A stretch of DNA of 64,000 bases from Gemmatimonadota bacterium. GTDB lineage: Bacteria; JAAXHH01. Under the pieces are notes generated by a model. That model did no database searches, was not told the origin of the DNA, and was given only the letters and a program-made list of their open reading frames with translations. The position numbers and the translations under genes are program-made. The stretch spans positions 332,735-396,734 of the forward strand of contig VXMB01000001.1 of the NCBI GenBank assembly GCA_009841265.1. The letters are read 5' to 3'. Positions 47,250-61,477 of the stretch are shown piece by piece (the stretch's first letter is position 1; every line of letters starts with the position of its first letter).

Positions 47250-49982
47250 TCACTCCAGCGACCGGAGCAGGACTTCCTGGGCGGCTTCGAAACCCGGTGC
47301 GTCCTCCAGGGCTTTCAGCGCGGCCTTCCTGGCGTCGTCCTTCCTTCCCGCCGCCAGGTATGCGCGGGCCAGGTCGTACTGCGCCTGCACCCGGTCGGTG
47401 GTCTCGACCGCCAGCACGGCTTCATATTCAGGCACGGCCAGGTCCGGCCTTCCATCCCGTTCGTACAAACCGGCGCGCATCTTTCGGATCTCGGCGTCGA
47501 AGGGATCGATCATGACGGCCCGTTCCAGGATGCGGAGGGCGTCCCCGCGCCGGCCTTCCCCGGCGTAGAGCCCGGCCAGGGTCTTGCAGGATTCGATGTC
47601 GTCCTCGTCGACGGCGGTGAGGGCCTCGAGGGCCTCCATCGCCGCTTCCGTGTTCCCCTGTTCGAGGTAGATCTCCGCCAGCAGTGCGTGGGGACTGCCG
47701 GCATGGGTGTAGTTTGCGAAGAGGGTCCGGGCGCGTTCAAGCGGCGTGATGGCTTCTTCATACCGTTTCTGCATGTGCAACGCCTGGCCCAGCATCAGGT
47801 GGGCGTAGAAACTCTCCGGATGATCGGCCGCCATCGCCTCCAGTTCGGCCATGGTCGGCTTCTCGTCGCGCGACGGCTTGAATTGCAGGACGCGCCGGAG
47901 CCCGGCGATTCGCTTTTCGGTATAGTCCGCGAAAGCCCGGTCGAAGTCTTCCATGGACCGGCCCGTTACCTCGCGAACGACTTCGGCGGTGGTCCGATTC
48001 CGGTTGTACAGGTCCAGCATGCTCCGGACCGCCTCGAATCCGAAGGTGTCCACCATGTATTCCACGACGATCGAGGCCTGGTAGTAGGAAAGGACGATCT
48101 GGTTCCGTGACTTCGGCCGGGTGAAACCCCGGTTCAGTTCGCTGACGGCGAGCAATTCGCCCTGGACCGCCGCCTCGGTGAACTCCGCTTCCAGGTCCAT
48201 GTCCCATTCCGGGCGGGCGAGACGCGTCTCGTAGACGGCGATGCCTTCCGCCAGCCAGCGGGGGATGCGGTTGCGCGTCTGCTGCAGATGGGTGACGTGG
48301 ACGTACTCGTGCCAGAGCGTCTGCCCCCAGTTGAACGTCCCCTTCGGCCGGGCCCTGGGCGAATTTGCCACCACCACTTCGCCGAAGCAGACCCCCAGCA
48401 GGCCGCCCGTTCCCGGCACGCCGGCGATGCGCACCATGAAGTCGTCGTTGTCCGGCAACATCTCTACATGGACGTGCCCACCCGGCGTGAATCCGTACCG
48501 CGGGGCGATCGTCCGGTGGGCTTCTTCGAGCAGATCGAGGGCCAGCTTTCCGTACACGGCGTCTTCGTCCCGGTGGATCTTCAAGATAAACGGACCACTT
48601 TCCCGGGTCTCGAAATCTTCAAAGGAATCGAGCAGCTCCAGCGTGTTGTAGGTACGGGTGTCGAAGGGGTCTCGGTCGAAGGCCTGTTCCAGCATCCGCC
48701 GGGCCTCATCCATCTCGCCGACCCGGGTCAGGCTGATCCCCAACCCGGCATAGGCCGACCAGAGCGCGGGGTCGGTCTCGATCGCCCGGCGGCCCATCTC
48801 CACGGACTCCCGGAACCGGTAGCGCCGCGTGAGGTGGTTCGCGATGATTTCGTACATCCGGCCATAGGAAGGATTGATGTCCATGACACGCTGCCGGGCG
48901 GCTTCGAATTCGGCCTGGCGGCCCTGACCGTGGTAAGCGGCCGCCAGGAGGGCATGGGTTCCGGGTGATTCCGGGTTGACCTCCAGGGCTTGGTCCAGCT
49001 GGCCGATCGCATTATCATAGGCCTCGTCCGTCAGGTGAAGCCCCGCGAGGAAATGGCGTCCCTCCATGAGCGAGGGATTTATCGCTAGTGCCTTCCGTAC
49101 CACGGCTTCCGCCGGCAGCGGCTGTTTCTCCGCAAGCGCCTCGGCCAGGCCGATCAGCGCGGGCGGATATCCGGAGTCGATCTTCAGCGCGTCCTCGAAA
49201 ATCCCGGTCGCTTCCGCGCGGTTGTGCTTGTCGAGGAAGAGGCGCCCCCACGCTACGTAGGCATCGAGGTGCTCGCTGTCGACACGGGTGGCCGCGGCCA
49301 GAAAAGAGTTGGCCTCGTGAGAAAGTTCCAGGTACCGCGCGGCGAGCCCCGCGGCCAGCAGGTTCGGCGCGTTCGCAGGCCCTTGTGTTCCCGTGTCCCT
49401 CAGGACTTCGCGGCACAGTTCGAGGCCCTCCTCGGTCCTGCCCGTCGTGAAATACACCTCCGCGAGCCGAACGGTAGCCAGCGCCAGCCCGCCCTGGCGA
49501 GACCGGGCGGCAGCCAGCACGGATTCTGCCTCGACATGCCGCCCCACGTGCAGGAGAAGCCTGCCGAGCAACGCGCGCATCTCGCCCGTGTCGGCGGTCG
49601 CGGCTTGCGAATGGTTCGTCGCGCCCGCATCGCTTGTCGCGTCCGCTTGCCCCACTGCGCTCTTCAGGAGTTCGACTGCCTGCACATACTGTCCGACGGA
49701 CGCGTGAAGCCGCGCAAGTGCCAGGATCGTCTCGTTGTGTCGCACCTGCTCATCACGACTGCCGGTCCCGGCGTTGCGCAGGCGGGCGTTCTGCCGCGAA
49801 ACTTCCGTCTGGAGTTCCCCGATCCGGTCCACGTAGCGCTGGCGCGCCGCGCGGCCTTCCTCGATCGCTTCTTTGAAGGCGGCGCCGTCCTGGGCGGTTG
49901 CGTCCTGGGCGGTTGCAGCGGGAGGTGTTTCCACCGCGGCGAGCAGCAGAAACACCATGAACACGCGGGCGGTTCTGATCAT
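47250..49982 (-). CDS. Exported TPR protein with peptidase-MA-like domain
   Basis: A 910-residue protein. It has a signal peptide (about 1-25), N-terminal TPR-like repeats (about 60-450), and then a gluzincin-type zinc peptidase domain with HEYVH (558-562) followed by WLAEGIAVYE as the third ligand region. Further TPRs (about 690-905) complete it. The arrangement resembles the peptidase MA family linked to TPR scaffolds seen in several environmental phyla. It is predicted periplasmic or secreted. The promoter is probably in the short gap before comEC. Substrate unknown; the peptidase motif looks complete. Confidence 0.78.
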   Translation of the reverse strand: MIRTARVFMVFLLLAAVETPPAATAQDATAQDGAAFKEAIEEGRAARQRYVDRIGELQTEVSRQNARLRNAGTGSRDEQVRHNETILALARLHASVGQYVQAVELLKSAVGQADATSDAGATNHSQAATADTGEMRALLGRLLLHVGRHVEAESVLAAARSRQGGLALATVRLAEVYFTTGRTEEGLELCREVLRDTGTQGPANAPNLLAAGLAARYLELSHEANSFLAAATRVDSEHLDAYVAWGRLFLDKHNRAEATGIFEDALKIDSGYPPALIGLAEALAEKQPLPAEAVVRKALAINPSLMEGRHFLAGLHLTDEAYDNAIGQLDQALEVNPESPGTHALLAAAYHGQGRQAEFEAARQRVMDINPSYGRMYEIIANHLTRRYRFRESVEMGRRAIETDPALWSAYAGLGISLTRVGEMDEARRMLEQAFDRDPFDTRTYNTLELLDSFEDFETRESGPFILKIHRDEDAVYGKLALDLLEEAHRTIAPRYGFTPGGHVHVEMLPDNDDFMVRIAGVPGTGGLLGVCFGEVVVANSPRARPKGTFNWGQTLWHEYVHVTHLQQTRNRIPRWLAEGIAVYETRLARPEWDMDLEAEFTEAAVQGELLAVSELNRGFTRPKSRNQIVLSYYQASIVVEYMVDTFGFEAVRSMLDLYNRNRTTAEVVREVTGRSMEDFDRAFADYTEKRIAGLRRVLQFKPSRDEKPTMAELEAMAADHPESFYAHLMLGQALHMQKRYEEAITPLERARTLFANYTHAGSPHALLAEIYLEQGNTEAAMEALEALTAVDEDDIESCKTLAGLYAGEGRRGDALRILERAVMIDPFDAEIRKMRAGLYERDGRPDLAVPEYEAVLAVETTDRVQAQYDLARAYLAAGRKDDARKAALKALEDAPGFEAAQEVLLRSLE

Positions 49983-52987: not shown

Positions 52988-53698
52988 TCATTCAGAACTT
53001 TCCGACCGGTCCTCCTCAATCACGCCGTCGCACAACCTGATGATCCTCCTGCAGTGCCTGGCGACGTGCGCTTCGTGCGTCACCAGTACGATCGTATGTC
53101 CTTCCCCGTTCAGCCGGTCAAATATCGCCATGATCTCCTCTCCGGTCCCGCTGTCCAGGTTTCCTGTGGGCTCGTCCGCCAGGATGATGGACGGCTCGCT
53201 GACCAGCGCGCGGGCGATGGCCACGCGCTGGCGCTGCCCGCCCGACATCTCGTTGGGCCGGTGGCGGGCGCGGTCGCTCACGCCCACCGCTTCCATGGCT
53301 TCCATGGAGCGCCAATGCCGTTCCCTGCTGTCCATGCCGCGGTAGAGGAGCGGCAGTTCCACGTTGTGCAGCGCGTCCATTCTCGGGAGAAGATTGAAGG
53401 CCTGGAACACGAACCCAATCATCCGGTTCCGGATGAAGGCCTGTTCGTCGTCCGTGAGATCTCCGACGGACCGGCCGTCGAGGGCGTACCTGCCCGCCGT
53501 GGGCGTGTCCAGGCAGCCCAGGATGTTCATCAGGGTGGACTTTCCGGATCCCGAACGGCCCATCACGGCCACGTATTCGCTCCGGTTGATGGTGGCGGAT
53601 ACCCCCCGGAGCGCGGGAATACGGCCGTCTCCCATCGGGAAGGACTTATGCAATCCCTCGATGGAGATCAGGGATGGAGAATGAAAGGAATGACGCAC
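52988..53698 (-). CDS. ABC transporter ATPase, LolD/MacB type
   Basis: A 236-residue ATPase. Walker A is GRSGSGKST (47-55), with [20 protein letters not shown] after the Q-loop, signature [15 protein letters not shown], Walker [17 protein letters not shown] and H-loop LVTHE. These match the LolD/MacB/FtsE-like subgroup, which drives lipoprotein release, macrolide export or similar membrane extraction. The usual permease gene (LolC/E or MacB) is absent on both sides. It may work with a distant permease or with the two small membrane proteins downstream. Confidence 0.85.
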
Positions 53699-53855
53699 GA
53701 CGCCTCCCTGTGACCGGGTGTGTGATTCGGTGCTATACAGGAATGGTCGTGTTTACGTGGGGGAATCTCGTGGGGAATGAGGATTTTTATGGAAGCTTAC
53801 AAGACAGCGTGTGAGTCGTCAGTGAATACTTCGTTGCATGCGGGAACCAGTTCAG

Positions 53856-53884
53856 TTGACGGGACGTTTGCATCCCTGTACCAT
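53856..53884 (+). promoter_or_regulatory. Promoter of the thioredoxin-fold/TonB gene
   Basis: TTGACG (53856-53861) and TACCAT (53879-53884) are 17 bases apart, about 75 bases before the gene. The gap 53699-53965 holds this promoter and no gene I can support. Confidence 0.6.
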
Positions 53885-53965
53885 AGTTATCCCAATACAA
53901 ATGTTGTTTTTCCTAAAATTAACGTCCCTGACCGGGTTATTGCCCCAAACCAAGGAAACAGCGAC

Positions 53966-55009
53966 ATGTCCACACCTGACTCACGCACGAACACTCGGCT
54001 GTACCTTTACGTCGCTTTTGCCGTCCTCGTCGCATTGAGCGCCGTCCTCCTCTGGCACAATGACCGGCAAAGGCAGGACGTTCAAAACCTGCAGCACAGT
54101 CTGTACAACGCCCAGGTGAGAATCCGTGTACTGCAGGCAGAGAAGATCTTCGGCACGCCGTTTATTGCCCCCTTCGCCGCGGTAGACCAGGAAGGCCAAC
54201 CTGCTACATTGCCGAATCTGGGCAACGGGCACCAGCTCCTCTTGTTATTCGGGCCGCGGCACAATCCACTCATCCTCGATCTGATGTCTTCATTTAGATC
54301 GGTGCTCGGGGACAATGTTCCGGTCATCGGCGTTCTCCAGGGAGAATCGGCCGATGAGATCGCGCCGATCGTGGAGAAATTCAGGCTCCAATTCCCGGTG
54401 TACCTGGCCGTCGATTCTCCCTTTGAACTGCCGCGTGTACCCCACGGTGTGTTGATTGATGGGGTCGGCAACGTGTTGCACCTGGCACCCATCGGGTCCG
54501 ATACCCCATCGGTGGAAGGACAAATCTCGGAATTTGCGCAGATGGTGAGGCGACTGGAATCGGATGTCCAACCGGACATGGCCGTCCGACTGGTACCGAC
54601 GGTTCCGCCGGATCAGGAAGGAAGTCCACCGGACCAGGCTGTACAATCGGCCATGGAGGCCGATCGGTTGGCAGACGAAAGAGCCGGGATTTACCGTCCC
54701 AACACGGTGGACACGCTAGGCGAGATTTTGTATTTCCCCAAACTCCCCACCGAAGCCGTCGATCTCAATTTCAATGGCGATGTTGTGGTGCAACTCGTCG
54801 TAGCTACGAATGGCAACGTGGTGGCGGCACTCGTGGAAAAACCATCGGGTCGCGCCGAGGTGGACTCTTTGATACTGAACGAAGCTCAAAAAATGGTCTT
54901 TACGCCGGCAGTACATGACGGAGCCCGCGTAAAGTTTCGCACGGTGATGCCATTTATGTTCAGGACAAGAGCCCCAGCTCCTGTCGAGGAGGCCGTTACG
55001 GAGGAGTGA
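53966..55009 (+). CDS. Membrane-anchored thioredoxin-fold protein with TonB C-terminal domain
   Basis: A 347-residue protein from the ATG at 53966 (AAGGA upstream). There is a signal anchor at about 12-32 and a short coiled segment. A redoxin-like domain follows (FAAVDQEGQPATLPNLGNGHQLLLLFGPRHNP) in which the CxxC position is occupied by non-cysteine residues. The C-terminal TonB-like domain (DVVVQLVVATNGNVVAALVEKPSG...MVFTPAVHDGARVKFR) has the energy-transducer pattern. The combination could link the periplasm to an outer-membrane partner, but no TonB-dependent receptor is nearby and the redoxin part is catalytically dead by sequence. Confidence 0.7.
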   Translation: MSTPDSRTNTRLYLYVAFAVLVALSAVLLWHNDRQRQDVQNLQHSLYNAQVRIRVLQAEKIFGTPFIAPFAAVDQEGQPATLPNLGNGHQLLLLFGPRHNPLILDLMSSFRSVLGDNVPVIGVLQGESADEIAPIVEKFRLQFPVYLAVDSPFELPRVPHGVLIDGVGNVLHLAPIGSDTPSVEGQISEFAQMVRRLESDVQPDMAVRLVPTVPPDQEGSPPDQAVQSAMEADRLADERAGIYRPNTVDTLGEILYFPKLPTEAVDLNFNGDVVVQLVVATNGNVVAALVEKPSGRAEVDSLILNEAQKMVFTPAVHDGARVKFRTVMPFMFRTRAPAPVEEAVTEE

Positions 55010-55047: not shown

Positions 55048-56931
55048 TCAATGGTGTTTTCCGTTCTTCGTCACTTCGAATTCGACGGTGCCGCTTTCGG
55101 TAATGACCGTGATGTCGGGATCTGAAAGATCTTGGGTTGTCGCAAAGGACATCCAGTATTCGTTGTGCGGCCATGATGAAATTACGGGTATTCTCTTCTT
55201 TAATTCTCCATACTTCGCTACACCGCAAATCGTATGCATGACCAGGCTGGTGTTTTTTACACTACTTTCGTCCAACATTAGGCCAACGTCACCGGAAACA
55301 GATCGTACGTAGCATCGGTGCCCGATGTTGCGGCTACCCTGTGACAACCGGGTACAGCCATAGCGGTTGTAAATGGCTATATCTCCCTCCAGGTCAAGCG
55401 CGCTCAAGTTCATACATCCTACGTCGATATCCACTCCACCCTTGACCGATTCGATGATCCCTTCGTTCTGATAGGGATTTCGTCTGAACGTGTCGTTGTC
55501 CAGGCTACAACCTCCATCTCCGTACCCGTACATGCGCTGGAACAACGATCCGTCTACACTTCGTATTTCCGAGAAATTGCTGTTGAAAAGGAACACGTCA
55601 CCTGTGATCTCGTTTACCCGGCAGGTTGAGCAGGCGTAAGCCATTAGTGAACCATCCAGACCATCGACATTTACCCGATCGGATCTGAAAACCGAGATAT
55701 TCATGCCGGCTGGAACCGAAACCGAGACGTGGCAGTAGGTCGCAGGTCCGTATACCCTGGTGCTATCAGACTGCATAGAACGGAATATACGCTCTACCTT
55801 GTCTGACACGGCATCTCTTGTCATTCTGATGGGTCGCGCCTCTGAAGCATGAACCGTGATCCGCATCGATTTCCTAAGGGATTTCTCCGAAGGTTCCGGC
55901 AACGGCAGAAACAGATTGATTTCATGCTTCGAATCCGGTAAGGCGTCGACCATTTTCACCCCGCACAGCCTTTCATCGAACATACTTTCGTTCTCCAGGT
56001 CGCGCCTCCAGTATTTACTGATAGGTTCAGTGTACGGGACGTTATCGGGAAACCAGGACTTGACGCCGAGAAACAACGCTCCGTCGTGGGGGCCTGTTTC
56101 CAGATAGTTTTCGACCTGGTCATGAGATATATGTAAGCCGTCGAGGTTACCTCGCGCTTCTTCCTCCGTCAGGCCCAACGCGATCTTCGAACCTTTAATT
56201 ACAACTTGATCACCTTCAGCCTGACTGATCTCGACCTCCGTATTCACGCCGCAATAGAGGACGATGTTTTCCACGTCTCCCATATCGATCTTTTCTTCGA
56301 AGTCTTCTCTGGCGATCTTGCAGAGTACATCCTGCACATCCTCGGTGACATCGATCTGGCTCATGACAAGGGTCTCCTGTTCCTGGGACGATAACGCGTT
56401 TTTAAGTCGGATTCGGGATTGATAGAGCCGTCCTTTCACCGTCGATTCTGGAATGTCCAGAAAGGCGGCGATTTCTTTCAGTGTAAAACCTGTGTAATAG
56501 TACAGATTGACGACCCGGCGATAGTGTTCGGGCAGTCTGTCGACTTCGTCCCAAAGCTCAAGGCTCTCGATGTAATTTCGATGGATCCGGTTCGCCTGGG
56601 GGTATTCACCACGGTTGTGTTCGGATTCCGGATCGATGCGGACCAGGTGACTGACTTTCTGCCGACGGCGCCATTCCTTGCAACAATTGACGACGATTCG
56701 ATGCAGCCAACTGCCGAAGACGGACGGGTCCTTCAACTGCGACAACTTGCAGTAGGCGGCCACAAAGGCGTCCTGTACCACGTCCTCCGCGTCTGTCCGG
56801 TCCCGAAGGAAACCCATGGCCACGGCGAATGCGGCGTTCTGGTACCGCCGGACCAGCGGCTCAAAGGCGTCGGCGTTTCCTGCCAGGCACTGCAGGATGC
56901 TGTAAGCGTCATCGTGGGCAGTAGTCGTCAT
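55048..56931 (-). CDS. ECF sigma factor fused to a large C-terminal beta-rich domain (copy 1)
   Basis: A 627-residue protein. Residues about 16-90 are ECF sigma region 2 (AFEPLVRRYQNAAFAVAM, DAEDVVQDAFVAAY), and about 125-180 are sigma region 4 with a helix-turn-helix (YYYTGFTLKEIAAFLDIPESTVKGRLYQSR). From about 185 a domain of ~440 residues follows with a repeated short-strand pattern (ENIVLYCGVNTEVEISQ, GSLMAYACSTCRVNEITGDVFLFN, LDLEGDIAIYNRYG) resembling DUF4097-like beta-helices. It has no signal or membrane span. A CxxC pair (Cys434, Cys437) is conserved in copy 2. No anti-sigma gene is adjacent. An intramolecular sensor or inhibitor is inferred. Confidence 0.85.
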   Translation of the reverse strand: MTTTAHDDAYSILQCLAGNADAFEPLVRRYQNAAFAVAMGFLRDRTDAEDVVQDAFVAAYCKLSQLKDPSVFGSWLHRIVVNCCKEWRRRQKVSHLVRIDPESEHNRGEYPQANRIHRNYIESLELWDEVDRLPEHYRRVVNLYYYTGFTLKEIAAFLDIPESTVKGRLYQSRIRLKNALSSQEQETLVMSQIDVTEDVQDVLCKIAREDFEEKIDMGDVENIVLYCGVNTEVEISQAEGDQVVIKGSKIALGLTEEEARGNLDGLHISHDQVENYLETGPHDGALFLGVKSWFPDNVPYTEPISKYWRRDLENESMFDERLCGVKMVDALPDSKHEINLFLPLPEPSEKSLRKSMRITVHASEARPIRMTRDAVSDKVERIFRSMQSDSTRVYGPATYCHVSVSVPAGMNISVFRSDRVNVDGLDGSLMAYACSTCRVNEITGDVFLFNSNFSEIRSVDGSLFQRMYGYGDGGCSLDNDTFRRNPYQNEGIIESVKGGVDIDVGCMNLSALDLEGDIAIYNRYGCTRLSQGSRNIGHRCYVRSVSGDVGLMLDESSVKNTSLVMHTICGVAKYGELKKRIPVISSWPHNEYWMSFATTQDLSDPDITVITESGTVEFEVTKNGKHH

Positions 56932-57268
56932 AGGATTGGCTCGTACTAGATAGGATAAACGGAAGAGTTACATAGAATAAGACGACCCTGCGGCCTCAAA
57001 GGTTAAAATCCGGATCGTGGAGTTGCTGCATGCTGTCGTGCGGATACGTTCTGTAGAGTTGAAATGCGGTCCATTTTACCGTAGGGAATGGCATTTCGAG
57101 GCCGACAACGGAAATTTGGTGTCGGTTCGTAGTGAAAGGTTCAGTTTCGAAAGGATGCAAGACTCATGCCCGGTATCGCAAGTGCGTTCAGATTCCTAAA
57201 GGCATAGTCTATTTTGGATGGAAGACCTCAAACGTGGAGTCATCTGCGGCGTTCGAGTTCTATTTTAT
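56932..57268. other. Intergenic region between the two sigma-fusion genes
   Basis: This holds 337 bases of mixed composition with no supported gene. A candidate extracytoplasmic-function promoter lies at its left end (separate entry). The remainder contains nothing I can recognise, no terminator hairpin with a T-run included. Confidence 0.5.
56981..57004 (-). promoter_or_regulatory. Possible ECF-sigma promoter upstream of copy 1
   Basis: On the minus strand AAC (57004-57002) and CGTC (56984-56981) are separated by 17 bases, the canonical spacing of ECF-sigma -35 AAC and -10 CGT elements. The -35 context is TTTTAACC rather than GGAAC. The gene start is 50 bases further on. Autoregulation, or control by copy 2, would follow if it is real; a chance match is quite possible. 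Confidence 0.35.
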
Positions 57269-59140
57269 TTACTTCGAATCTGGGCCATTTAACAACTCGA
57301 CTTCGGCTGTGCCACTTTCTGTAAGAAGCAGATAGTCCGCTTGGGTTGTATCGTACGTAGTTCCAGCTGTGATGCGATGTCCGTCGTTGTACGTCGAATA
57401 CATCCGCATTTCGTTCTTCGCCTTACCCAATTTCAAGACGCCACAGCGCGTATACATCACCAGGCTGACCTTCTTTGCAAGGCTTTCATCCAGCACCAGT
57501 TTTGTCTCCCCTGATACAGTCCTGAGGTTACACCGGGTCCCGGATTCCCGGGATGACTGGTAAAAGCGGGTTGTACCGAATCGATTGTAAATGGATACGT
57601 CACCCGCCAAATCCTGAGCATCCAATACTAAACGACCGACATCGATATCTACACCACCCTTTACGTTGGAGAGTTTTCCTTCCCACACATCCTTGTTACG
57701 TATAGTTCCCTCAAGGTAGTTCGCGGCACCGAATTCATACATGCGCTGGCAAAACATACCACCTACTTCATGTATATCCGAAAACATGCTGTTGAACAGG
57801 TACACATCCTTCGCGATATCAGTTATCTGGCAGGATTGGCAGGCATATACCATCAGACTACCATTCAACCCCTCCGCGTTGATTCGTTTCGCTCTGAACA
57901 CCGAAATGTTCTTTCCGGCCGGAACCTCAATGGAAACATGACAGTACGAAGCCGGTCCAAAAACCTTTGAAGCATCGGACCAGTAAACCTGAAAGACGTC
58001 CTTGATACTTCCCGTCAAGGCAGTATTAGGTACATGAATCGGCCGTACTTCCATCGTGTGAACCGATATTCGCACTGATTTGCTCAAGCTCTCTCGCGCT
58101 TTTTTCGGTAGCGGAGGAAACGCATCGATATCAGATTTCAGGTCCGGATACAAATCGACCAACCTGACGCCGTTACACACTTCGTCCAGCATCCAGTTGT
58201 TCATCAGATCCCGTCTCCAGTGGTCGCTGATCCGGCTGGTCATGGCTGTGTTTTCGTTGCCTGATGAATCTACACCGACGAAAAGTTCGCCTTCATGGGG
58301 ACCGGATTTATAGAAATCATCGACTGTATCGTGAGAAACGGCAAATCCGCCAAGGTTGTGGCGTGCCTCTTCGTCGGTATAGCCAAGTCCGATTTTCGAC
58401 CCTCTGACAAGCAATTGCTCTCCTTCGGTCCGGATGATTTCCACTTCCGTACTGACGCCGCAATAAAGGACGATGTTTTCTACGTCTCCCATGTCGATCG
58501 TTTCTTCTAAATCCTCCCTGGCAAGCTTGCAAACGACATCCTGAACTTCCGCCGTTACATCGATCTGGCTCATGGCGATGGACTCCTTTTCCTGGAGCGA
58601 CAGCGCTTCTCGCAGACGGATCCGTGACTGGTAAAGCCTCCCTCTTGCGGTCGATTCGGGGATATCCAGGAAGGCGGCAATTTCCTTCAGTGAAAAGCCC
58701 GTGTAGTAGTACAGTGAGACAACATCACGGTAGTGTACGGGCAACTTCTCAACAACATTCCATAGTTCAAGACGCTCGATGTATTTTCGATGAATACGAT
58801 CCGACATGGCGTGTTCATCGCGTAATCCATCGGAATTCGCATCAACGCGGACTCTACGACCGATCTTGCTACGGCGGATCCACTCCTTGCATCGGTTGAC
58901 AACGATTCGGTGAAACCAACTGCCGAAAACGGCCGGATCTTTCAGTTGCGATAGTTTACAGAAGGCCGAGATGAAGGCATCCTGTACCACATCCTCGGCA
59001 TCTGACCGGTTTTGGAGGTATCCCAATGCCACGGCGAAAGCGGCGTTCTGATATCGCCGGACTAACGGTTCGAAGGCGTTCGCGTTTCCGTCCAGGCAAA
59101 GCCGGACGTTATAGGTGTCGTCGTTTGTGCGTGTCGACAT
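57269..59140 (-). CDS. ECF sigma factor fused to a large C-terminal beta-rich domain (copy 2)
   Basis: A 623-residue paralogue of the preceding protein, aligning without gaps over roughly the first 470 residues. Sigma region 2 (EPLVRRYQNAAFAVALGYLQNRSDAEDVVQDAF), region 4 (FSLKEIAAFLDIPESTARGRLYQSR) and the C-terminal extension (ENIVLYCGVSTEVEI, GSLMVYACQSCQITDIAKDVYLFN) are all kept, including the CxxC (434-437) and Cys227 and Cys400. The extension ends in LLLTESGTAEVELL. It starts 33 bases after a predicted metallopeptidase gene, so they probably share a transcript. Function is as inferred for copy 1. Confidence 0.85.
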   Translation of the reverse strand: MSTRTNDDTYNVRLCLDGNANAFEPLVRRYQNAAFAVALGYLQNRSDAEDVVQDAFISAFCKLSQLKDPAVFGSWFHRIVVNRCKEWIRRSKIGRRVRVDANSDGLRDEHAMSDRIHRKYIERLELWNVVEKLPVHYRDVVSLYYYTGFSLKEIAAFLDIPESTARGRLYQSRIRLREALSLQEKESIAMSQIDVTAEVQDVVCKLAREDLEETIDMGDVENIVLYCGVSTEVEIIRTEGEQLLVRGSKIGLGYTDEEARHNLGGFAVSHDTVDDFYKSGPHEGELFVGVDSSGNENTAMTSRISDHWRRDLMNNWMLDEVCNGVRLVDLYPDLKSDIDAFPPLPKKARESLSKSVRISVHTMEVRPIHVPNTALTGSIKDVFQVYWSDASKVFGPASYCHVSIEVPAGKNISVFRAKRINAEGLNGSLMVYACQSCQITDIAKDVYLFNSMFSDIHEVGGMFCQRMYEFGAANYLEGTIRNKDVWEGKLSNVKGGVDIDVGRLVLDAQDLAGDVSIYNRFGTTRFYQSSRESGTRCNLRTVSGETKLVLDESLAKKVSLVMYTRCGVLKLGKAKNEMRMYSTYNDGHRITAGTTYDTTQADYLLLTESGTAEVELLNGPDSK

Positions 59141-59173
59141 GTTCGAATCAAATCGAGTTCTGAATACTGACGG

Positions 59174-60172
59174 TCATTCGAGATAGGTATCCAAAGCCTT
59201 CAGCAATGCAGGATAGTAATCTTCGAAGGTCTGATTTTGAATATGATGCTGCTCGTAATCCTCAAGTGCGCGTAAAAGGGCAGGGAGGTAGCGAAATCCC
59301 TTTTCTATATCCCGCACGAGTAAACGATCACCGTGTTTCGGACCCCATTCGCGGTGAAACAATCGAGATGTAATGGCGCGGATCAAATGTTCGTTAAGGC
59401 ATATCTCCCAATCTCCGTAACCACCCGTTTTTGCCATTTTCTCCAGAATTGGATCTAACAACAGAGCATACTTCCCAATGTCGGGGCGATGTCGTTCAGT
59501 AACGGGATTAACGAACGAATGGCCGAACTCATGCCAGATGAGTTCCAGCAATTCGTCCCTGGTTCCGAACACCGGGATACCATCAACCGATCCAACCGGC
59601 CCGATTACGCTGAAAATGGACAGCCTGTTATCAGGGTTTCGAACACGAGGCCCGATTCCACCGTGTTGAAACAAGGGACTTAAAACCAGATTGTAGTCCT
59701 GTTGTCGCATTCCGTAGTATCGTTCCAGGACGTCGATCAAATTCTTACTGTTCAGCGTTTTAGCAACTGTGTCGATTAAGGATTGGTAATATAAGGTTTG
59801 GCTTTCAAAAAAAGTGCCGAAGTCTGATTGGATCGCAAAACCACTTAGTAGTTCGTAGAACGTTCGAAACCGGGTTTCGTCTTGAAATGCTCGAATGTAG
59901 TATTCGTAGTTTTCGAAGGGGAATTGAGGCGTAAGTTCCGGCGGTTTCGACAGCGACAACACCGGACTCAGGTAGGCGTCCGAGTAAGTGCGATGCTCTG
60001 TAATTTCTTTAAACAGTTTGACTGCCTCATGGGTTTTAAATGGTGAAAAGTAATCCCGCATGGACTGGGAATACGCCACGTCGTACCTGGTTAGTCCTTC
60101 ATAATCGCACAGCAACTTTATGGTGATGACAAGTTCAATTCTGGGATCTACGTCGATGTTCAAACTGGCCAT
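59174..60172 (-). CDS. Predicted zinc metallopeptidase, DUF4932-like
   Basis: A 332-residue protein from the ATG at 60172, eight bases after GGAG; a GTG at 60253 or ATG at 60178 are alternatives. The core starts NIDVDPRIELVITIKLLCDYEG, as in DUF4932 proteins, and contains the zinc motif WHEFGHSFVNP (His214, Glu215, His218) with a conserved NEHLIRAI helix about 45 residues later. There is no signal peptide or membrane span, so it is cytoplasmic by sequence. It lies between another predicted metallopeptidase and the sigma-fusion gene copy 2. Confidence 0.72.
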   Translation of the reverse strand: MASLNIDVDPRIELVITIKLLCDYEGLTRYDVAYSQSMRDYFSPFKTHEAVKLFKEITEHRTYSDAYLSPVLSLSKPPELTPQFPFENYEYYIRAFQDETRFRTFYELLSGFAIQSDFGTFFESQTLYYQSLIDTVAKTLNSKNLIDVLERYYGMRQQDYNLVLSPLFQHGGIGPRVRNPDNRLSIFSVIGPVGSVDGIPVFGTRDELLELIWHEFGHSFVNPVTERHRPDIGKYALLLDPILEKMAKTGGYGDWEICLNEHLIRAITSRLFHREWGPKHGDRLLVRDIEKGFRYLPALLRALEDYEQHHIQNQTFEDYYPALLKALDTYLE

Positions 60173-60236
60173 CACCATGTCTCCGTTTTTTGGGACGAAG
60201 GAGCGGGTATAGCTCGATCTGAGATACCTAATGTGT

Positions 60237-61127
60237 TTAATGACCGTAACCACTATCCTTCAAAAATCGAAGCGCGTCGGGACTGTTCTTAATCGAGAGA
60301 ATGCCTTCTATAGCCGCCTTTTTGTCGGTCGTCTTCTCGTAGTAAGCTTCACATATCTTGTAACCCGCGTAGTATCCCAGGTCGGCCGGCCTTTCTGCTG
60401 TGGACCTGCCTCCGTTGTATAGCCAGTTGTCGAAGTTGGTTTGTAGCATGTCTTTCGAGAACGATTCCCACAGTTCAGATTCGTGAGCATCTCCATACAC
60501 GTGCAAATGGGGATTTATGTGTTTTCCGGTTGCCAGCTCTCCAAGAAAGTCGGCGGCACCTTCGTTTATAGACTGACCCAGTAGTGTGTTATCTCCATAA
60601 TCATAGGCCTGCTGTGTGTGCATAAGTTCGTGAATAACGATATATGGAATGTCTTCTACAGGTCTGAGGACTTCAAAATACCACTCGGTCAGTTCGTCCG
60701 TGGGGAGATCGTCCGTTCGACAGGAAATCTCGGTCCCAATTAAAAGGCCATTGCTCGATGTCGTTCCTCCAGAAGTCATTTTACCGATCAGAAAGTACAC
60801 GTCTGGGTAAACCGCTTTGTCGTACAGTTGCTTCCAGTTGTGCATATACCCGCGGATCTGATCGGTTAAGTCCAATACACGGTTTGAGCTCTCCCTTATT
60901 GAAGCGTAATACCTCGGCCGGGCTTCGATTACCTCGACCAACCCCTCCGCGCTTTCGATTCTGGCGTCGATGAAATCCTTAAGACCGATACTGCCCTTTG
61001 CGAAGTATTCCGATTCGAAAATGTTGATCTTTTCTTCCGTAGTCTTGCCTTCCGACAGATCGTACGCCAGCCAGAAATGATCGATATCGGTAGTAACCAA
61101 CCGGACTTCATCGGGATCGCTATTCAT
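60237..61127 (-). CDS. Predicted zinc metallopeptidase, DUF2268-like
   Basis: A 296-residue protein without signal peptide. The zinc motif is HELMH (166-170), followed by the third-ligand region SINEGAADFLGELA (Glu189). This spacing matches the DUF2268/GldB-like group of predicted Zn-dependent proteases. GGGAGG lies nine bases before the ATG at 61127. It is the first gene of an apparent three-gene minus-strand operon (two peptidases, sigma-fusion). The substrate is not known; processing of the sigma-fusion protein is a natural hypothesis. Confidence 0.72.
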   Translation of the reverse strand: MNSDPDEVRLVTTDIDHFWLAYDLSEGKTTEEKINIFESEYFAKGSIGLKDFIDARIESAEGLVEVIEARPRYYASIRESSNRVLDLTDQIRGYMHNWKQLYDKAVYPDVYFLIGKMTSGGTTSSNGLLIGTEISCRTDDLPTDELTEWYFEVLRPVEDIPYIVIHELMHTQQAYDYGDNTLLGQSINEGAADFLGELATGKHINPHLHVYGDAHESELWESFSKDMLQTNFDNWLYNGGRSTAERPADLGYYAGYKICEAYYEKTTDKKAAIEGILSIKNSPDALRFLKDSGYGH

Positions 61128-61477
61128 CGAGGAGAACCTCCCGGCCTGTTTGTTGTATGTGTTGGTTGCTCAGTGAGAGACACAACCTTCTGATAGTTAA
61201 GACGTTTCAGAACCCCGGTTAATCAAATTCATATCTACTGATTCTAAAAATCCGCCTATGGAAGTCCATACACGATCGTAATAGTGACCATTTTTATCGA
61301 GTGTTTTGTCTTCGATCTGGTGGTATGTTCTCTTACTTTCCCCACCCACCGAATCATTGACACCGGCCCCATATCCCCTATATTCATTATTAGTAGTACT
61401 ACATATATAGTCATATATAATCGAAGCATGGTTTGAACCTGGCATCACTCAATTTTCAACCTGAACGGGAGTAATCC
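61128..61477. other. AT-rich intergenic region with a doubtful short frame
   Basis: This 350-base region is markedly more AT-rich than the rest of the right arm. A minus-strand frame at 61197-61445 could encode about 82 residues (MPGSNHASIIYDYICSTTNN...) but has no convincing ribosome-binding sequence and no recognised motif. The region must also contain the promoters of the peptidase operon and of the redoxin gene; I could not place either with confidence. Confidence 0.45.

Follow-up and report, generated by a model that had tools for sequence, protein, structure and literature searches.

Two sigma factors fused to a predicted Toastrack domain, with a conserved, likely internal start codon at the junction

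How would a sigma factor be held in check when its probable regulator is part of the same polypeptide? The question is raised by a 64,000-nucleotide stretch of contig VXMB01000001.1 from a Gemmatimonadota bacterium (the window), in which two genes each encode an extracytoplasmic function (ECF) sigma factor continuing into a large C-terminal domain, predicted to be of the Toastrack type. At the junction of both lies a conserved methionine codon preceded by a Shine-Dalgarno (SD)-like AGGAG, and a promoter-like motif stands upstream of the operons. The balance of evidence tips slightly towards a model in which each gene encodes an in-frame sigma-Toastrack fusion and likely also the domain on its own, with free and attached domain together restraining the sigma factor pending a signal. 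The genes and their junctions are:

55048..56931, minus strand: ECF sigma-Toastrack fusion copy 1, 627 residues; sigma part residues 1-189, domain residues 190-627
57269..59140, minus strand: ECF sigma-Toastrack fusion copy 2, 623 residues; fold predicted for residues 190-623
56362..56364, minus strand: internal in-frame ATG (Met190) of copy 1, conserved; proposed second start
56374..56378, minus strand: AGGAG, SD-like, of copy 1, 9 nt upstream of the internal ATG
58571..58573, minus strand: internal in-frame ATG (Met190) of copy 2, conserved
58583..58588, minus strand: AAGGAG, SD-like, of copy 2, 9 nt upstream of the internal ATG

The two copies share 57% identity over 620 residues. The initial annotation had read both open reading frames as complete ECF sigma factors (regions 2 and 4) with a large C-terminal domain, and profile searches bore this out: Sigma70_r2 (residues 26-92) and Sigma70_r4_2 (residues 124-176) scored above the Pfam cut-offs in both, with regions 1 and 3 absent, as in ECF factors. 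Residues beyond the sigma part matched no Pfam or NCBIfam family at cut-off in either protein; the best 25 of 96 and of 91 matching NCBIfam families were all sigma factors. SnoaL, the ECF41-type extension, gave no Pfam match at expectation values (E) up to 10, and a beta-helix was predicted instead. The extension is large and soluble in both proteins, and the earlier observation that neither contains a membrane span was upheld. The top 19-residue Kyte-Doolittle means were 1.00 and 1.03, compared with 2.43 for a ComEC-like control, and a mean of 1.6 was reached by 2 of 124 full-length relatives. With no such mean above 1.03, the window proteins do not carry a membrane-anchored inhibitory extension of the IutY kind. 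A Pfam scan of ten proteins whose genes lie between 47250 and 63107 found no anti-sigma domain, again as first described. Good support exists for a sigma factor that carries a soluble, probably regulatory domain at its own C-terminus without an adjoining anti-sigma gene, and to this extent the self-contained one-component system proposed by the initial annotation stands.

ECF factors with C-terminal extensions are likewise complete sigma factors continuing into an extension within one protein, with no anti-sigma gene, but the extension here has 434 residues and is Toastrack-like, whereas SnoaL and TPR types have about 120-200 (available sections of PMC8999054). In those sections DUF4097/Toastrack is not among the ECF extension groups, of which 15 of 26 remain to be studied and many are still without a known mechanism; nor do the available sections of PMC8103513 mention DUF4097. 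Literature listings on sigma factors with DUF4097/Toastrack, on Latescibacter ECFs and on internal starts, a scope outside which the 2021 ECF classification lies, showed no description of a sigma-Toastrack fusion.

Structure prediction, proposed in the initial annotation as a check, gave a predicted Toastrack beta-helix for residues 190-623 of copy 2, with 4qrk and 4opw among the best structural matches to the predicted fold. The predicted domain spans 434 residues versus 166-247 in the matched adhesin-like chains, and the single match at E < 0.001 in a viral structure library was a putative adhesin. Sequence comparison with solved structures returned nothing useful (2 rows, best E 0.13). The Toastrack profile PF13349 matched 15 of 56 family members at E up to 1 (best 3.3e-4), the single member whose score was seen reaching 18.7 bits, below the cut-off of 22.9, and it did not match the window domain itself. 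Known Toastrack proteins (DUF4097/DUF2154/DUF2807; LiaG, LiaF and PspC fusions) resemble the present domain in the predicted beta-helix and in being intracellular, but their fusion partners are membrane or SHOCT-like domains, or a separate regulator is encoded alongside them, whereas here the domain follows an ECF sigma factor (available sections of PMC11237479).

Residues 181-202 of the full-length model fell below a predicted local distance difference test (pLDDT) score of 50, as did the first 11 residues of the domain model, and this linker is probably flexible. The predicted template modelling (pTM) score was 0.66, and no fixed contact between sigma factor and domain was evident. A low-confidence linker of this kind would suit a Toastrack domain with no regulatory role, the fusion merely bringing the sigma factor to a membrane complex or the domain being a passenger. 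We regard this as highly improbable: domain length and many residues are retained down to about 30% identity, and Toastrack has been linked elsewhere to transcription control and to ABC transporters (PMC11237479, in part).

Because the start of the domain and residues 181-202 are below pLDDT 50, the predicted fold does not explain why the junction is conserved. The junction was inspected in 138 collected proteins and counted over 137 aligned rows, excluding P0136 (a permease enclosing a piece of the domain, set aside as a probable assembly chimera) and the later-found P0139. Met190 was present in 136 of the 137, down to about 30% identity; the runner-up methionine column, initiator aside, reached 81 of 131. 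Residues 191 and 192 vary while Met190 stays constant. The sole exception is a valine in P0112, possibly encoded by GTG.

DNA of the distant clade (P0080-P0135, about 30-35% identity) was not found in 385 genomes, viral contigs or plasmids, and junction DNA was compared in 15 copies, which come from 11 genomes of a single genus. In this genus a conserved candidate start codon with an SD-like sequence at suitable spacing was found: AGGAG ends 9 nt upstream of the Met190 ATG in 15/15 copies, an unchanged SD core being followed by variable spacer codons. As no 16S rRNA gene turned up in the assembly of the window, the anti-SD CCTCC was read from the 16S 3′ ends of four assemblies of the genus, which carry GGATCACCTCC; one of these four genes (L094, from G004) departs from the others and possibly stems from contamination. 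Mean SD duplex energy was -7.0 at Met190; the annotated start gave -1.55 and 172 further ATGs inside these genes -2.53. The SD at Met1 was weak or lacking in all 15 copies. Codon 186 was GAG in every copy, GAG accounting for 223 of 660 glutamate codons elsewhere in these genes, and codon 184 was GAA in 14 of 15. Taken as signs of an internal start, these patterns are suggestive, not decisive. The initial annotation did not mention the conserved codon.

Several results limit the case for an internal start. The peptide around Met190 is also conserved (I193, D194, V195, V199, Q200 and C204), so that the linker peptide itself could matter. Glutamate columns that were GAG throughout numbered 2 of 23, single-gene synonymous nulls were not significant (P = 0.19 and 0.27), and an equally strong SD preceded 6 of the 67 ATGs inside genes nearby. 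Domain-only open reading frames starting exactly at Met190 were found among 5 of 118 homologs; as these are 90-98% identical to fused proteins they prove little, and they were not accepted as proof of a stand-alone gene.

The conserved linker and the non-significant nulls would fit a single product: a one-component sigma factor whose attached Toastrack domain controls it by way of a partner or ligand, with Met190 and the purine-rich codons kept for the linker peptide. Such control has been proposed for the ECF41 and ECF42 extensions, and these two and that of ECF238 are described within one protein (PMC8999054, in part). We consider this explanation possible but doubtful. Methionine is often exchangeable, yet Met190 is invariant beside two variable residues, with an exception that fits GTG; the SD core is fixed beside variable spacer codons; and Met1 has little or no SD of its own. 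This pattern makes translation from Met190 likely in each gene, which would give the domain alone. A working parallel is SctQ/YscQ of type III secretion, where a proven internal start yields a C-terminal part that binds and works with the full-length protein (available sections of PMC4295842). The likeness is one of operation only: SctQ/YscQ is a structural protein of another kind, and what was established by experiment there is inferred here. Among ECF factors with C-terminal extensions, the available sections of PMC8999054 report no such conserved internal start with an SD.

Would the fusion genes be transcribed by their own sigma factor? Two promoter-like sites bear on this:

56972..57008, minus strand: promoter-like motif upstream of copy 1, TTTTAACCTTT...GTCGTCTTATTCTAT
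61198..61227, minus strand: promoter-like motif upstream of the peptidase/copy-2 gene run, TTTGAT-N17-CGTCTTA

A motif resembling TTTTGATCTTT-N13-CGTCNTATACTA, with one spacing, occurs upstream of sigma genes, of a DUF2268-sigma run (G009) and of an FtsX-sigma run (G005). With a matrix seeded by eye from 9 sites, 11 of 21 upstream regions tested scored 22.0-49.3 bits; the window has a single site above 14 bits, itself a member of the training set. The pattern TTTGAT-N17-CGTCNTA, found also upstream of the window's peptidase run, gave 7 exact matches in 13 genomes, 6 of them at the sigma-Toastrack locus, versus 2 for a control pattern. With one mismatch allowed, the window's own genome had 8 matches, 7 of them inexact, versus 3 for the control. 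As the pattern was built from such sites, these matches speak for a narrow target set and are not independent proof of function. ECF41 provides a precedent, with a conserved promoter motif and its target limited to the neighbouring gene (PMC3426412, in part). The motif also has weak points. Three of the 11 well-scoring regions are near-identical, and because the seed included one of them, none of the three was scored in a fully left-out way; the matrix gave poor scores (-6.1 to 4.6) to the peptidase runs of G000, G004, G006 and G008, which have no more than TTTGA and CRTCT in common, with unchanged spacing; and the motif is absent at 6 sigma genes that lie directly behind another gene.

Taking junction and motif together, we think it somewhat probable that the regulator is encoded twice in one frame, attached and, through the deeply conserved internal start, free, and that the locus is transcribed by its own product. 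Each gene would make sigma-Toastrack plus free Toastrack from Met190, and the two forms may assemble through their beta-helix faces. Toastrack would restrain the sigma factor and serve as a docking surface, from which a partner or a signal at the membrane may free it; in 3 of 12 loci (G004, G005 and G008) the fusion has a MacB/FtsX-type ABC permease gene as its neighbour. The freed sigma factor would transcribe its own locus, and such a burst would also yield more free Toastrack, both coming from one mRNA, and so curb the response. In ordinary ECF operons a co-transcribed anti-sigma gene limits the response likewise.

If true, this would add a layout of sigma control to the separate anti-sigma factor, the membrane-fused anti-sigma factor and the single fused extension. 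Toastrack is a pan-bacterial domain with a proposed role in signalling; here it forms one polypeptide with a sigma factor, and direct transcription control by Toastrack therefore becomes a simple assay. If the internal start is real, genome annotation overlooks one more protein at every locus of this kind; it would also illustrate how genes for a sigma factor and its regulator can merge without loss of the free regulator. An unfused cluster in the same genome (L089:2007-5173, plus strand) suggests by analogy how the fusion could arise. There too, genes for an ECF sigma factor and for a Toastrack protein (DUF4097, with a start that reads as signal-peptide-like) occur together, but unfused and with a zf-HC2/HEAT anti-sigma gene between them.

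Could the sigma factor instead be released by proteolysis, or by chemistry at a CxxC motif in the domain? The initial annotation had raised these routes as possibilities, and had correctly placed copy 2 behind two predicted zinc peptidases on the same strand, identified by Pfam as:

59174..60253, minus strand: DUF4932 putative metallopeptidase (HEFGH), accessory to the copy-2 sub-lineage; GTG start doubtful
60237..61127, minus strand: DUF2268/GldB-like predicted zinc protease (HELMH), first gene of the copy-2 run

The DUF4932 start is doubtful because alignments to the three relatives having this gene begin only at residue 18-21; the true start is probably downstream of the GTG. A survey of co-occurrence, suggested at the outset, gave a divided answer. 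In the copy-2 sub-lineage (at least 85% identity in the domain; 5 genomes) the fusion lies behind DUF2268 in 5/5 and behind DUF4932 in 4/5, following the same kind of motif, and IutY is a precedent for a fused sigma factor freed by proteolysis (PMC8999054, in part). No peptidase match was found in the 4 complete slots lacking this sub-lineage, and copy 1 and the other sub-lineages share the architecture. Peptidase cleavage is therefore not a general mechanism, and the peptidases were rejected as universal partners; in a single sub-lineage they would serve as targets or accessories. The CxxC, although present in both window copies, occurs in 61 of the 134 family members that have a residue in each of the two columns. 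As most of the family lacks it, it was rejected as a family-wide sensor, and thiol or metal chemistry there is unsupported. Release of an inhibited sigma factor by either route thus appears unlikely. Six other cysteines are near-invariant in the family alignment (C15, C61 and C84 in the sigma part; C204, C227 and C566 in the domain), with a possible metal or redox role.

The domain was found in 12 of 17 genomes of the window's phylum, all 12 within one genus (13 genomes examined). Among a wider set of 385 genomes 13 had matches, and the single one outside the genus (G150, E 9e-4) was discounted as a negligible match. A scan of genome contigs returned five near-clade loci, four labelled Candidatus Latescibacterota and one Gemmatimonadetes; the last has the coordinates and scores of G011, a member of the window's genus. 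In the 12 genomes the fusion occupies one slot between lipoyl-synthase/redoxin genes and an ATP-binding cassette (ABC) ATPase/ComEC-like pair, the slots of G002, G003 and G007 being cut by contig ends. In the window the adjoining genes include:

52988..53698, minus strand: ABC transporter ATPase, at the locus border in 12/12 genomes
53777..55009, plus strand: redoxin-like protein (by reading) with TonB_C (Pfam), a variable flanking neighbour

The TonB_C gene was unmatched in the slots of G004, G007 (cut), G008 and G012, and was present as fragments in G009. The MacB_PCD/FtsX permease stands between the ABC ATPase and the fusion in G004 and G008, and that of G005 (L019:3000-5417, plus strand) is split by an in-frame stop. 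In G006, G008 and G009 the slot has a 16S rRNA gene a few kb away (L063, L065 and L066). Also kept beside the slot in the genus is a third metallopeptidase-like gene (47250-49982, minus strand), encoding a 910-residue TPR protein with Peptidase_MA_2. Elsewhere, L090:2309-5581 (minus strand) holds three consecutive open reading frames that read as DUF4097-repeat-like, with lipoprotein- or signal-peptide-like starts, one of them confirmed by Pfam.
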